64,000 nucleotides of DNA. Source: Acetobacteraceae bacterium. GTDB lineage: Bacteria; Pseudomonadota; Alphaproteobacteria; Acetobacterales; Acetobacteraceae. The position numbers and the translations under genes were made by a program. The notes below the pieces were generated by a model. That model was not told the DNA's origin. It did no database searches and saw only the letters and a program-made list of their open reading frames with translations. This document shows, piece by piece, positions 41,615 to 47,986 of this stretch. The DNA lies in assembly GCA_024280945.1 (NCBI GenBank), contig JAMXLO010000097.1, positions 1 to 64,000 of the forward strand, in the 5' to 3' direction. Each line of letters starts with the position of its first letter. Position 1 is the first letter of the stretch.

Positions 41615-42310
41615 ATGGCTTTCATGTTCTTGCGTGAGACGATCCGGACATATCGGGAACGCGACCCGGCCGCGCGGTCCAATTTGGAGGTTTTGCTCTG
41701 TTACCCGGGCGTGCATGCGGTCATGTGGCACCGGCTTTCCCACTGGCTGTGGCAGCGGGGCCTTCGCTTGCTGGGCCGATTTTCCTCACATATTGCCCGT
41801 TGGCTGACCGGCATCGAGATCCACCCTGCCGCTAAATTAGGCCGACGCTTTGTTATCGATCACGGTATGGGCGTGGTTATCGGCGAGACCGCGGAAGTCG
41901 GCGACGACTGCTATTTCTATCATCAGGTGACGTTGGGGGTGGCCCGCGCGAGCGGCGGTGGCAAGCGGCACCCGACTGTCGGGAATAACGTGATCATCGG
42001 GGCCGGCGCCAAGGTGCTGGGACCTATTCGGGTCGGCGACAATGCCCGTGTCGGCTCGAATGCCGTGGTGCTTGACAACGTGCCTGACGATATCACGGTC
42101 GTAGGCATCCCGGCACGACCAGTGGATCGCACGAGCACGCGTGACCACAAGATGCCCGGGTTCGATCCCTATGGGATTCCATGCGACGACAGCCTTGATC
42201 CGCTGCTCCGAGACCTCGACCAGATGCACTGCGAGCTTGCCGAGTTGGAAGCGCGGATAGCGCGGGTGGCAGAGGAACAAATGCGCCAACGGCAGGCCGC
42301 GGCGGAGTAG
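41615..42310 (+). CDS. cysE: Serine O-acetyltransferase
   Basis: A 231-residue enzyme forming O-acetylserine from serine and acetyl-CoA, the first step of cysteine synthesis. The left-handed beta-helix hexapeptide repeats are clear: [40 protein letters not shown], and [20 protein letters not shown]. The catalytic His/Asp are in FVIDHGMG. The N-terminal helical domain is shorter than in E. coli CysE, as in the smaller EpsC-like form. It heads a tight plus-strand block with iscR 4 bp downstream, which ties cysteine supply to sulfur mobilisation. Confidence 0.95.
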
Positions 42311-42314
42311 GTTC

Positions 42315-42800
42315 TTGCAGCTGTCCACACGGGGCCGCTACGCCGTGATGGCGATGGTGGACCTAGCCACCCGACAGACTCTGGGCTGTGAATGCGGCCC
42401 GGTCTGCCTGGCCGAGATCGCCGCCAGGCAGAAGCTGAGCCAGCCCTATCTTGAGCAACTGTTCGGCAAGCTGCGACGGGCTGGACTGGTCGGTTCGGCA
42501 CGCGGTCCGGGCGGCGGCTATCGCCTGGCGCGCGCGTCCGATGCGATCGCCATCGCCGACATCATCGCCGCAGTCGACGAACCAATACACGCCACCCGAT
42601 GTGAGATCGGCAGCCCGGGGTGCATCGAGGGTGTCGATGATAAGGGACCCACCCGCTGCCAGACACATGATCTGTGGGATGAACTCGGCCGTCAGATCTA
42701 TCTGTTCCTCCAGGCGGTCACACTGGCGGACGTGGTGGCCGGGCGAGTCCTCGGGCGCGCAGTCGCGGTCGCAGCGGAACCACGCCAGGCGGCGGATTAG
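42315..42800 (+). CDS. iscR: Rrf2 family regulator, IscR-like
   Basis: A 161-residue regulator starting with TTG at 42315 (MQLSTRGRYAVMAMVDLA). The winged-helix DNA-binding part includes CLAEIAARQKLSQPYLEQLF and LVGSARGPGGGYRLAR. The [2Fe-2S] ligands are three cysteines in the loop CEIGSPGC...GPTRCQTHDLW, with the following His as the probable fourth ligand, as in IscR. It therefore likely senses cluster status and regulates this operon. cysE is 4 bp upstream and the first desulfurase begins 3 bp after its stop. Confidence 0.9.
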   Translation: MQLSTRGRYAVMAMVDLATRQTLGCECGPVCLAEIAARQKLSQPYLEQLFGKLRRAGLVGSARGPGGGYRLARASDAIAIADIIAAVDEPIHATRCEIGSPGCIEGVDDKGPTRCQTHDLWDELGRQIYLFLQAVTLADVVAGRVLGRAVAVAAEPRQAAD

Positions 42801-42803
42801 CGC

Positions 42804-43895
42804 ATGGTCTACCTGGATGCCAACGCCACCGAGCCGCTGCGGTCGGAAGCGCGAGAAGCAATGCTGGCGGCAATGGCAACGACGGGGAATCCATCGTCGG
42901 TGCATGCCGCCGGTCGTGCTGCGCGCAAGCTGTTGGAAGATGCACGGGAGGCGCTTGCGGCCAAGTTCGGCGGTCGGCCGAGCGACCTCGTGTTCACCTC
43001 GGGCGGCACGGAGGCGGATGCGCTGGCGGTGCACGCCCTCGGAGCCGGCCGCAGAGTGATCGTCGGTGCCACCGAGCACGACGCGGTCCGTGCTGCAGCG
43101 CCGAACGCGCTCATGTTGCCGGTTGACCGGGACGGGGTAGCGGACCTCGCAACCCTGCAACGCTGGTTGTCCGCAGGTCCCCCGGCGTTGGTCTGTCTGA
43201 TGCTGGCCAACAACGAGACCGGCACGATCCAGCCGATCGCCCGTGCCGCCGCGCTGTGCAGGGGTTTTGGCGCATGCCTGCATGTCGACGCTGTCCAGGC
43301 GGCTGGCCGGATGGAGGTTAAACTTACCTCCCTCGGAGCGCACAGTCTCGCCATTTCGTCCCATAAGCTGGGCGGCCCCCCTGGCGCTGGCGCGCTGCTG
43401 CTCGATCCTGGGATCTCCGCGTTCACGCCATTGATCGCTGGCGGCGGACAGGAACGTGGACGTCGGGGTGGCACCCCTCCCCTGCCCGCGATCGCAGGTT
43501 TTGCCGCCGCAGCCGTCGCGTCGTCACATGACCTTTCCCCCCTGCGCGACACAGTGGAGGCTGCGGCGATAGCCGTGGGTGCGGTTGTCTGCGGCGCCGG
43601 CGCCCCGCGTCTTGGGAATACCACCTGCCTGGCGCTGCCCGGCGTTCGTGCCGATGCCCAGGTGATCGCGCTCGACCTCGAGGGCATTGCAGTCAGCGCG
43701 GGTGCCGCATGCAGCTCCGGCAAGGTCACCACCAGCCACGTCCTGACCGCGATGGGCCTGGGACCGCTGGCCGGCCAGGCAATCCGCGTCTCGCTGGCAT
43801 GGAACGCGATGGAAACCGACGTGGCCGCCTTCGCAGCTGCATACGCACGCATGGCGGACCGGCTGCGCAAGGCGCTGGCACCGCGCGCCGCCTGA
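42804..43895 (+). CDS. Cysteine desulfurase (NifS/IscS family), copy 1
   Basis: A 363-residue PLP enzyme that releases sulfur from cysteine as a persulfide. It begins MVYLDANATEPLRSEAREAM. The PLP-stacking His is in VGATEHDAVR, the Schiff-base Lys in SSHKLGGPPGAGALLL, and the persulfide Cys in SAGAACSSGKVTTSHVL. It is clearly distinct from the next gene and more diverged from canonical IscS (ANATEP in place of DNQATT). The active-site loop is of the longer group I type. The order iscR-desulfurase-desulfurase suggests the two serve different acceptors. Confidence 0.92.
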   Translation: MVYLDANATEPLRSEAREAMLAAMATTGNPSSVHAAGRAARKLLEDAREALAAKFGGRPSDLVFTSGGTEADALAVHALGAGRRVIVGATEHDAVRAAAPNALMLPVDRDGVADLATLQRWLSAGPPALVCLMLANNETGTIQPIARAAALCRGFGACLHVDAVQAAGRMEVKLTSLGAHSLAISSHKLGGPPGAGALLLDPGISAFTPLIAGGGQERGRRGGTPPLPAIAGFAAAAVASSHDLSPLRDTVEAAAIAVGAVVCGAGAPRLGNTTCLALPGVRADAQVIALDLEGIAVSAGAACSSGKVTTSHVLTAMGLGPLAGQAIRVSLAWNAMETDVAAFAAAYARMADRLRKALAPRAA

Positions 43896-43911
43896 ACCCA
43901 CATTGGCTGCT

Positions 43912-45108
43912 ATGACTGACGCCCCATCGCGCCCGAATCGTCCGGTGTATCTCGACAACCAGGCGACCACCCGTTGCGACCCCCGCGTGGTCGAGGCAAT
44001 GTTGCCCTGGTTCAGCGAGCATTACGGCAACCCACACAGCGTTGAGCACGTGATGGGGGTCGAGGCGGAAGCCGCGGTCGAGGATGCCCGCGCGCAGGTG
44101 GCTGCGCTGGTCGGCGCGAACCCGAACGAGATCGTGTTCACCTCCGGCGCGACAGAGAGCAACAACGTTGCAATCAAGGGAGCCGCCCGCTTCGCCGGCC
44201 ACGCCGAGCGCCGCCGCATCGTAACCGTCGCTACCGAGCACAAGTGCGTTCTGGAGTCGGTGGCCGATCTTGCAGCCGACGGCTTCGAGCCGGTGTTCCT
44301 GCCGGTGCAGCCGGAAGGGCTGATCGACCCCGAGGTGCTGCGTGAGGCACTGCAGGTGCCGACGTTGCTCGTCAGTATCATGACGGTGAACAATGAGACG
44401 GGCGTGATCCAGGACATCCCTGCCCTCGCTGCCATAGCCAAGCAGGCGGGTGCCCTTTTCCACACCGATATCGCCCAGGCAGCCGGCAAGATTCCGGTGG
44501 ATTTGTCTGGCTGGAAGGTGGATCTCGCTTCGATCAGTGGCCACAAGATATACGGGCCGAAGGGGATCGGCGCGCTGTACGTGCGACGCCGGCCACGGGT
44601 TCGGCTGGCCCCGCTGTTCTCGGGCGGCGGACAGGAGCGAGGGATCCGGTCGGGCACGCTGCCGGCTCCGCTCATCGTCGGTCTTGGCGAGGCTTGCCGG
44701 CTGGCACAGGCCGAGATGGACGAGGAGAGCAAGCGGTTGGCGACGCTGCGGGATCGGCTGCTGCGGGGACTGGCGGACGCCATACCGGGCCTGCGGGTAA
44801 ACGGCAGCATGGCGGCACGTATCCCCGGCAATCTCAACGTGACATTCCCGGGCGCGACCGCGGCAGAACTGATGGAGCGCGTTCCTGATCTGTGCGTTTC
44901 CACCGGATCCGCCTGCTCCTCGGCCGCGATCGAGCCCTCCTACGTGTTGCGGGCTCTTGGGCTGACCGACGACGCGGCGTCGTGCACCTTGCGGATCGGG
45001 GCGGGACGCTTTACCTCGCCGGCCGATGTCGATTACGCGGTGGCGGCGCTGGCTGCGGCCCATGCCGGAGCGCCGGCTCCAGGCATCGAACAGCTTGCCA
45101 AGGCCTGA
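43912..45108 (+). CDS. iscS: Cysteine desulfurase (IscS-like), copy 2
   Basis: About 398 residues from the ATG at 43912; a TTG 9 bp earlier is possible and neither has a good Shine-Dalgarno sequence. Motifs: [37 protein letters not shown] His in [12 protein letters not shown], Schiff-base Lys in [16 protein letters not shown], and persulfide Cys in [20 protein letters not shown]. This is close to canonical IscS, so it is the likely sulfur donor for both Fe-S assembly and the mnmA-type tRNA thiolation encoded downstream. It follows copy 1 after a short gap. Confidence 0.93.
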
Positions 45109-45127: not shown

Positions 45128-45460
45128 ATGCCAAAAATGACCTTCATTGAGCGCGACGGCACGCGCCGCGAAGTGGACGCGCCAACGGGACTGTCGGTGC
45201 TTGAGATCGCGCATCAGCATGGTGTGGACATCGAGGGCGCCTGCGAAGGCTCGCTCGCCTGCTCCACCTGCCACGTCATCGTTGATCCTGCCTGGTTCAA
45301 GAAGCTGGCCGAACCGACCGAGGACGAGGAGGATATGCTCGACCTTGCGTTCGGACTGACCGAAACGTCGCGGCTTGGCTGCCAGATTGTCATAACCGAG
45401 GCGCTCGACGGACTGGTGGTGAAGTTGCCCGCGGGCACGCGCAACCTACTGAACGGATAA
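45128..45460 (+). CDS. fdx: ISC-type [2Fe-2S] ferredoxin
   Basis: About 110 residues from the ATG at 45128. Cluster ligands are Cys39, Cys45, Cys48 ([15 protein letters not shown]) and Cys85 (SRLGCQIV), the C-x5-C-x2-C...C spacing of adrenodoxin/Isc ferredoxins. The acidic [14 protein letters not shown] segment is also typical. It supplies electrons in Fe-S cluster assembly. It sits between iscS and mnmA; iscU, iscA and hscBA are absent from this block. Confidence 0.93.
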
Positions 45461-45464
45461 GCGC

Positions 45465-46532
45465 GTGCGAATCCTCGTCGCGATGTAGGGCGGCGTGGAC
45501 AGCAGCACTGTCGCAGGCCTGCTGCACGAAGCGGGTCACGAGGTCATCGGCGTCACGCTGCAACTCTACGATCATGGCGTTGCAATCGGGCGGAAGGGCG
45601 CATGTTGCGCCGGTCAGGATATCCATGACGCGCGACGCATCGCCGACCACTTGGGCATCCCGCATTATGTCATCGACGCAGAGCAGCGCTTTGCCGAGGC
45701 GGTGATCCGCGACTTCGCCAACGGTTACGCGGCCGGCGAGACGCCGGTGCCGTGCGTGCGCTGCAACCAGACGGTGAAGTTTGCCGACCTGGGGGCGCTG
45801 GCGCAGGGGCTGGGCTGCGAGCGCCTGGCGACTGGACATTACGTGCAGCGGATTGACGGCCCGGATGGACCCGAACTGCATCGGTCGGCCGATCCGACGC
45901 GCGACCAGAGCTGGTTCCTGTTCGCCACGACCCGAATGCAACTCGCGCAGTCGTTGTTCCCGTTGGGCGGGATGGCGAGCAAGCAGGCGGTGCGTGCGGA
46001 AGCCGAAAGATTAGGGCTGCCGGTGGCATTGAAGCCGGACAGTCAGGACATCTGCTTCGTCCCTGCAGGAAATTATGCTGACACAGTCGTTCGACTGCGG
46101 CCGGACAGTGGAACGGCGGGCGACATCGTCTCCCGCGATGGGCGGCTGCTTGCCCGGCATGATGGCATCGCTCGCTACACGGTCGGACAGACCAAGCGTC
46201 TCGGCAGCGCGTCGTTCGACGGCGGACAGCGGCAGACTGTGGTTGCGCTGGACCCGCGGCACCGGCGCATCGTTGTCGGACCGCGCGACACCGGGACCCG
46301 GACGGTGCACCTGCGCGAGGTGAACTGGCTGCTGCAGCCCGTCGAGCCGATGGCCTGCGAGGTCAAGCTGCGTGCCCGTGAAGCTCCGCAACCTGCGACC
46401 GTCGTTGCCCACGCTGGTTCGACGGCGACGGTGACATTGGCGACACCTGCACTGCCAGCACCGGGACAGGCCTGCGTGTTCTATCGCGGCTCCCGCGTGC
46501 TGGGGGGCGGCATCGTCCGACGTGACGATTGA
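45465..46532 (+). pseudogene. mnmA: tRNA 2-thiouridylase gene interrupted by an amber codon in the PP-loop
   Basis: The frame starts with GTG at 45465 and reads VRILVAM, then TAG at 45486-45488, then GGVDSSTVAGLLHEAGHEVI and on to a TGA at 46530. In MnmA the codon here is the serine of the ATP-binding SGGVDSS loop, so a single change from TCG to TAG is enough to explain it. The rest is intact: GRKGACCAGQDIHDARR, catalytic Cys in PCVRCNQTVKF, GLATGHYV-like text, and the second Cys in DSQDICFVPAG. MnmA thiolates U34 of Glu, Gln and Lys tRNAs using sulfur from IscS, encoded just upstream. Restarting at the GTG at 45495 would lose the start of the PP-loop. A sequencing error, a suppressed amber or a recent null allele are all possible. 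Confidence 0.85.
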
Positions 46533-46588: not shown

Positions 46589-47986
46589 ATGTACCGCAAT
46601 CTGATTGCCGCAGCGCTTGCGCTGGTAATCTTCCTGCCGTCTGCGCGCGCGGGCGATTTCGGCGGCAATCAGTCAGAACTGATCCGAAGTCTGCTGCCGA
46701 CCGTGGTCAACATCACGGTCCGCAAGGAGGTAACGGATACCGGGTCGTCGGTTAATGCCGGCGCGACGACCCGGCAGAGTGACGACAGCAAGACGTTCGT
46801 GGGCTCGGGGTTCGTGATCGACCCGGCCGGTTCAATCGTCACCAATTATCATGTCCTGGAGAACGCATTCGAGATCTCGGTAACATTGTACGACGGGTCG
46901 GTTCTCCCGGGGACGATGTTGTATGCGTCCAGACTGGCGGATCTGGCAGTGCTGCATGTGCAGCCGCCCTATCCGCTGACGCCGGTGCAGTGGGGCGACA
47001 GCACCAAGTTGCAGATCGGCGAGCCGGTATTTGCTATCGGCAACCCGCTTGGGATCGGCACGTCGGTGTCAGCCGGCATTATCAGTGGCCTCAACCGCAA
47101 CGTGCAGGACTCCCCGTACGACGATTACATACAGACGGACGCGGCGATCAACCACGGCAATTCCGGCGGCCCCTTGTTCGACATGAAGGGCCGCGTGATC
47201 GGTGTGGACACCGCGCTGGTATCACCCACCGAGGCGTCGGCCGGGCTCGGTCTCGCCATCCCGTCCGACACCGCGCAGTTCGTGGTGGGGCAGTTGAAAG
47301 CCTACGGCTGGGTGCGCCCGGGGTGGATTGGCGTCAAGGTTCAGCAGGTCACCGCCGCTATGGCCGACGCAATGGGCATGCGGCAGCCGGCAGGGTCGGT
47401 GGTGTCCTGGGTGCTGCCGGATGGACCGGCGCGGCGGGCTGGGATTCAGATCGGAGACGTGATCCTGCGCTTTGGCGACAAGGCTCCGAACGACGAGCGG
47501 GCCCTGCTGCGGGATATCGTACGAACTCCTGTCGGCGACACGATCCAGGTGACGCTGGAGCGCGATGGCGCACAGCTCACCCTGCCGGTGACCGTCGCCG
47601 CCTGGCCACGCAAGAAGTGGGAGACGCGCGACGCTCCATTGCCGACCGAGCGGCCGAACACCGGGGTCCGGCCCGATCTCGGCCTGTCGCTCGCTGCCAT
47701 TGCGGCGGGCGATCGGGCCAAGTACGGACTGGAGGACGACATCGGTGGGGTGCTGGTATCCGGGGTGGTTCCAGGCTCGGACGCTGCGCGTCGTGGGATG
47801 ACGGAGGGCGATGTCATCCTGCGGGTGCAAGGAAAGCCGGTAGCCGCGGCGGCCGACGTGCAGTCTTCGATCGCCGCAGAGCGCGAGGCGAAGCACCGTT
47901 ACATTATGATGCTGGTGCTGCAGAAGGGACGCGCGATGCCGGGGCCATCGTGGGTCGCGCTTCAGTTGCCGGAAGCGGCGGGATAG
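46589..47986 (+). CDS. DegP/HtrA-type periplasmic serine protease with PDZ domains
   Basis: A 465-residue exported protease. A Sec signal (LIAAALALVIFLPSARAG) ends near residue 22. The trypsin-like domain (about 30-245) carries the triad: His in IVTNYHVLENA, Asp in SRLADLAVLHV, and Ser in AAINHGNSGGPLFDMKG. Two PDZ-like domains follow (about 250-340, with GSVVSWVLPDGPARRAGIQI, and about 365-450, with GVLVSGVVPGSDAARRGM). These proteases degrade or refold damaged envelope proteins. It may have its own promoter and a hairpin over its ribosome-binding site. Confidence 0.92.
   Translation: MYRNLIAAALALVIFLPSARAGDFGGNQSELIRSLLPTVVNITVRKEVTDTGSSVNAGATTRQSDDSKTFVGSGFVIDPAGSIVTNYHVLENAFEISVTLYDGSVLPGTMLYASRLADLAVLHVQPPYPLTPVQWGDSTKLQIGEPVFAIGNPLGIGTSVSAGIISGLNRNVQDSPYDDYIQTDAAINHGNSGGPLFDMKGRVIGVDTALVSPTEASAGLGLAIPSDTAQFVVGQLKAYGWVRPGWIGVKVQQVTAAMADAMGMRQPAGSVVSWVLPDGPARRAGIQIGDVILRFGDKAPNDERALLRDIVRTPVGDTIQVTLERDGAQLTLPVTVAAWPRKKWETRDAPLPTERPNTGVRPDLGLSLAAIAAGDRAKYGLEDDIGGVLVSGVVPGSDAARRGMTEGDVILRVQGKPVAAAADVQSSIAAEREAKHRYIMMLVLQKGRAMPGPSWVALQLPEAAG

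Follow-up and report, generated by a model that had tools for sequence, protein, structure and literature searches.

The locus analyzed here raises the question of whether an amber codon near the start of an otherwise conserved mnmA gene marks a real loss of tRNA thiolation, a stop that is translated past, or an incorrect base in the assembly. The window, the whole stretch of 64,000 nucleotides that was analyzed, contains the gene for tRNA 2-thiouridine(34) synthase at 45465..46532 (+), as identified from its reading frame and the NCBIfam profiles; it is the sole copy found and is broken at codon 8. From the GTG at 45465 the frame reads VRILVAM, then TAG (45486..45488, +), then GGVDSST, and onward to a TGA ending at 46532. 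Because the reading frame is unchanged across the TAG, the lesion is a substitution and not an insertion or deletion. The portion after the stop scores 350.9 bits against NCBIfam NF001138 (cut-off 284) and 257.9 bits against TIGR00420 (cut-off 236.95), and the NCBIfam homology after the stop covers residues 1-343 of 347. The first-pass annotation had placed the GTG start, the TAG, and an otherwise complete MnmA at these coordinates, and each of these is confirmed. Since the in-frame stop sits inside a gene defined by homology, its occurrence by chance is not a concern. The SGGxDS PP-loop of MnmA is not intact in the assembly: its first serine is TAG, and GGVDSS is unbroken.

The residue at codon 8 was read in 136 mnmA loci of relatives, which comprise 110 loci (one collection being the best 80 of 592 candidates), the locus of the same-genus genome G001, and 25 loci from a family scan; these are not independent species, as the collections may overlap in organisms. 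Within the best 80 of 592, the named relatives with the closest MnmA are MAGs of Acetobacteraceae or Rhodospirillales, which makes Acetobacteraceae the probable source of the window. In an alignment on which no motif was imposed, serine is found at position 8 in 134 of the 136 loci, and both of the following glycines are kept in the same 134; the other two loci (L027 and L065) end short of the site. The TAG therefore falls on the first serine of SGGVDSS, as had been proposed from the frame alone. A stop seen in locus L049 during this motif-free reading is the natural end of that gene. When the motif was used for reading, position 8 could be read in 108 of the first 111 loci (not in L027, L065, or L091), and serine was present in 108/108, encoded by TCG (55), TCC (31), TCT (16), TCA (4), AGC (1), and AGT (1). 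The alignment of these 108 relatives was chosen by a motif demanding SGG, so the invariance of SGG in it arises by construction; the motif-free reading of 136 loci repeats the check.

Some match to mnmA was obtained for 149 of the 150 genomes in the family scan and exceeded the cut-off in 140, among which the internal stop is confined to the mnmA of the window. The class scan gave a match in 380 of 389 genomes, over the cut-off in 374, and no internal stop appears among the matches listed, which do not include the window's own row. Assembly gaps may explain some of the 15 class members with no match over the cut-off. In family f59, all five genomes that the class scan contains (G095, G185, G313, G366, and G415; 0.9-1.0 Mb) have no mnmA over the cut-off; four of them give no match at all and one gives only a match at 9.2e-4. 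Genome G067 (6.2 Mb, listed as 100% complete) yields only a match at 2.9e-4, and its congeners G165 and G235 have a full match. One further genome carries a 417-bit MnmA (locus L193, G507:C116) beside one of 264.7 bits, the next-highest row of the family being 309.6; the 417-bit protein is probably foreign or contaminating.

The genes upstream of mnmA, all on the + strand, belong to sulfur metabolism. They encode serine O-acetyltransferase (cysE, 41615..42310; TIGR01172, 245.3 bits, over the cut-off of 210.65), an IscR-like Rrf2 regulator (iscR, 42315..42800; TIGR00738, 121.2 bits, over the cut-off of 73.3, and TIGR02010 IscR, 164.5 bits, below 207.55), a divergent NifS/IscS-like cysteine desulfurase paralogue (iscS1, 42804..43895; TIGR03402, 262.8 bits, below the cut-off of 530.75), an IscS-type cysteine desulfurase (iscS2, 43903..45108; NF010611, 490.8 bits, below the cut-off of 548), and an ISC-type 2Fe-2S ferredoxin (fdx, 45128..45460; TIGR02007, 91 bits, below the cut-off of 132.1). 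The gene had been described as lying in the middle of a sulfur-relay operon. The run of sulfur genes is present, but mnmA forms the 3′ end of this cysE-iscR-iscS-iscS-fdx-mnmA series because the next gene, which begins at 46589, encodes an HtrA/Do-like protease (TIGR02037, 366.5 bits, below the cut-off of 416.2). The order from cysE to mnmA is identical in G001, where fdx is 94% identical. Across 21 loci (G001 and L033-L052), fdx lies upstream of mnmA in 19, in some with a gap of about 1 kb, and two separate desulfurases lie upstream in 13. In the window, the two desulfurase paralogues, one of them divergent and NifS-like, are adjacent and occupy 42804-45108 between iscR and fdx.

The catalytic cysteines downstream of the stop had been reported as intact, and this holds, with the addition that the site contains three. 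In an alignment to E. coli MnmA (2der), the counterparts of Cys102 and Cys199 are cysteines; the E. coli residue numbers are those of a review (PMC11784392). Cysteine is found at these two positions in 108 and 107, respectively, of the 108 aligned relatives. Cysteine also takes the place of E. coli Asp99, both here and in 108/108 aligned relatives, and the three conserved cysteines of the window MnmA are at codons 97, 100, and 197. An MnmA with three cysteines bears on the debate over [4Fe-4S] MnmA covered in the same review (PMC11784392).

The assembly of this genome is a draft of 156 contigs and 6,420,847 bases, with a completeness of 99.02 and a contamination of 1.73; many of its contigs reach lengths of tens to hundreds of kilobases. 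A profile search with TIGR00420 found one mnmA in the 6.42 Mb. The sole other match has 24.7 bits and spans 33 profile positions inside a frame of 622 residues, and it was not taken as a second mnmA. Most relatives also give a similar second match, as a rule in a frame of about 515-620 residues, presumably from a PP-loop synthetase such as GuaA. The possibility that a second complete mnmA makes this copy dispensable, which had been raised at the outset, thus finds no support in the assembly. The 44 tRNA hits, with anticodons assigned by ARAGORN, do not include tRNA-Ile(GAT) or tRNA-Ala(TGC). These two tRNAs are normally located in rRNA operons, and their absence is typical of assemblies in which those operons remain unassembled. 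Their absence suggests that rRNA operons are missing from this assembly, and the tRNA set is probably incomplete. A 16S search of the same genome returned none, a result that carries no weight because the search also missed 16S in 5 of 14 control genomes.

With a single copy and a downstream frame that is conserved as in a gene still in use, the stop could be real and be read through by amber suppression, recoding, or regulated leakiness, with some full-length MnmA being made. This is improbable on the evidence from the decoding apparatus. The suppressor tRNA that had been suggested was not detected: no CUA anticodon occurs among the 44 hits of the covariance model, a set from which Ile(GAT) and Ala(TGC) are also missing, and a sequence pattern for such a tRNA gave 16 matches versus 40 when reversed as a control. 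This pattern requires A after the anticodon and would miss a tRNA with G there; the three of its matches that fall within tRNAs come from ordinary tRNAs for Arg and Ser, in which the pattern is offset by one. Loss of release factor 1 was rejected since an intact RF1 gene is present (491.6 bits). Pyrrolysine decoding was likewise dismissed, since the only PylS match scores 31.3 bits, where the cut-off is 178.15; of 14 control genomes, 13 give PylS matches, one of them over the cut-off. TAG is moreover in ordinary use as a terminator, ending 94 of the 368 ORFs called in a 464-kb sample (TGA 225, TAA 49) as well as cysE, iscR, and htrA in the window. An in-frame UAG is not kept in relatives, every covering locus having serine at the site, and near-cognate decoding would be expected to insert serine there only seldom. 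Nothing in these results supports a novel decoding mechanism for the mnmA TAG. A narrower version, in which the UAG in the ATP motif is tolerated with low or regulated near-cognate readthrough and s2U34 is tuned by termination efficiency, is extremely improbable; if true, it would place a tRNA-modification enzyme under the control of stop-codon leakiness.

Other genes of the assembly were inspected for similar stops. No in-frame stop was found in the 150 ABC_tran domains scored (231 candidates, from part of the genome). A list of 42 adjacent ORF pairs in the same frame was compiled, and the scan that produced it would miss a stop lying as near the start as the one in mnmA. Five pairs were examined with Pfam, of which four are two separate genes and one is a UGA selenoprotein, so that none of the five is a gene split by a nonsense codon. 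One pair (L176:12354) was dismissed without Pfam since mnmE lies there on the opposite strand, and the remaining 36 were assessed visually, with start position and junction score as the only criteria. The selenoprotein case is at locus L169 (10620-11147, − strand; C141:40001-60000 of the same genome), where an in-frame TGA splits a protein of the UGSC family (PF24696) and coincides precisely with the U of U-G-S-C. A tRNA-SeC is present in the genome, and the split protein is likely a selenoprotein. This case demonstrates that the ORF-pair scan is able to detect a recoded stop in the middle of a gene, and the recoding seen here is of UGA. The selenouridine enzyme MnmH, which needs s2U, gave no match in the genome; the control search was over the cut-off in just 1 of 14 genomes, so that this negative carries little weight.

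A functional product could in principle also be obtained by restart at the GTG at 45495..45497 (+), the first possible start past the stop. Six bases separate the two codons, a spacing that appears close enough for termination-reinitiation, and an N-terminally shortened MnmA might work in part. Such a protein would start beyond the first strand and the SGG of the PP-loop, and the two glycines are present in 134/134 covering loci. Also weighing against it, sulfur transfer to MnmA has been observed only when ATP is present, according to a review (PMC5372745). Restart is accordingly very improbable.

The remainder of the gene was compared with that of relatives for signs of decay. At 83 near-invariant columns (agreement of at least 97% among the others), the window differs from the 108 relatives at two, the stop and one I-to-V change. 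Across the 109 sequences, 81 have no deviation at these columns, 15 have one, 7 have two, and 6 have three or more. Changes private to the window and to G001 were counted with five outgroups (three for cysE and four for iscR). The window/G001 counts are 22/17 for mnmA and 22/13 for the intact neighbor iscS2; those for the other genes are 17/16 (iscS1), 1/3 (fdx), 6/5 (cysE), and 2/5 (iscR). There is no clearer rate excess in mnmA than in intact iscS2. The relaxed constraint and further lesions expected of a nonsense pseudogene were not seen in mnmA, although a very recent lesion would not show them either. The pattern fits either a lesion too young to have left traces or the absence of a lesion. 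The stop had earlier been proposed to be recent, suppressed, or a base-call error. The first and last of these stand, given the single copy, the few changes at conserved sites, and the lack of a clear excess over iscS2; suppression has no support from any of the tests run.

The likeliest single reading, with a probability of roughly 0.5, is that the draft assembly has a one-base consensus error at the stop. The cells would then make normal MnmA, and the TAG would exist only in the consensus; a cysteine desulfurase would supply persulfide sulfur, and MnmA would adenylate U34 of the Glu, Gln, and Lys tRNAs and then thiolate it. This reading is favored by the uniqueness of the stop among the 140 over-cut-off family genomes, by the serine kept in 134/134 covering loci, by the lack of decay at the near-invariant columns and in the private changes relative to iscS2, and by the draft state of an assembly in which tRNA-Ile(GAT) and tRNA-Ala(TGC) were not found. 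Against it, the assembly otherwise looks clean: the 150 scored ABC domains are free of stops, none of the five Pfam-tested pairs is nonsense-split (the only split family is a UGA selenoprotein), many contigs are long, and completeness is 99%. An error as the cause is inferred from prior rates together with the strong constraint on the gene, and the preference over a real null allele is slight.

A tentative but serious alternative is that the nonsense mutation is genuine and very recent, and restricted to the strain or population that was sampled. The mnmA gene would then be null, U34 of tRNA-Glu, tRNA-Gln, and tRNA-Lys would be unthiolated, and the organism would survive at a cost in fitness; modification at C5 by MnmE/MnmG may continue, and a 466-residue open frame for MnmE is present (best match 240.3 bits, cut-off 252.6). 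This is the sequence at face value, with only one copy found. If the stop is real, s2U34 is lost because no other mnmA was found and we know of no bypass of MnmA for this modification, and the earlier statement to that effect is sound on this condition. Such a loss is conceivably tolerable, if costly. Both U34 and C34 tRNAs are present for the three amino acids (C34: Glu CTC, Gln CTG, and Lys CTT), so that the G-ending codons have their own readers. The A-ending codons make up 36.6% of Glu, 20.5% of Gln, and 21.0% of Lys codons in the called ORFs and jointly only 3.05% of all codons, shares that are rough since these ORFs run from stop to stop. The 15 class members without an over-cut-off match point in the same direction, to the extent that they are not assembly gaps. 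Loss of MnmA need not be lethal, since MnmA is not essential for the viability of E. coli according to the review cited above (PMC11784392). The gene is, on the other hand, strongly conserved, and it appears among the core or ancestral essential genes listed from transposon screens of Enterobacteriaceae (PMC11481867). Also against a null allele are the absence of further decay in mnmA, the lack of such a state in all 139 other family genomes with an over-cut-off match, and the retention of GAA at 36.6% of Glu codons. Among the titles listed by a literature search, none concerns a natural mnmA pseudogene.

A real stop would mean that a bacterium with a cysE-isc-type run of sulfur genes lacks s2U34, making it a natural test of the dispensability of this widespread modification. 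If the stop is an error, as is slightly favored here, the locus is only a warning that automatic annotation could call mnmA lost.

Among known systems, the locus resembles MnmA/TrmU (NF001138, TIGR00420) in its homology almost to the end past the stop, its retained cysteines, and its position after fdx as in G001; it differs in having TAG at codon 8 in this assembly, where every covering relative has serine. A pseudogene made by a single substitution (a nonsense allele) would likewise have a lone in-frame stop in a gene otherwise conserved, the stop here being known from the consensus only. Recoded stops, such as the UGA of selenoproteins and the UAG of pyrrolysine proteins, share with the locus a conserved frame interrupted by an in-frame stop, but the mnmA stop is UAG, no CUA tRNA was found, the PylS match is below the cut-off, and relatives do not have the stop. 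The Bacillus subtilis YrvO-MnmA pair, as presented in the review (PMC5372745), resembles the window in having a desulfurase gene near and upstream of mnmA, whereas the window has two desulfurase paralogues and places fdx in between.
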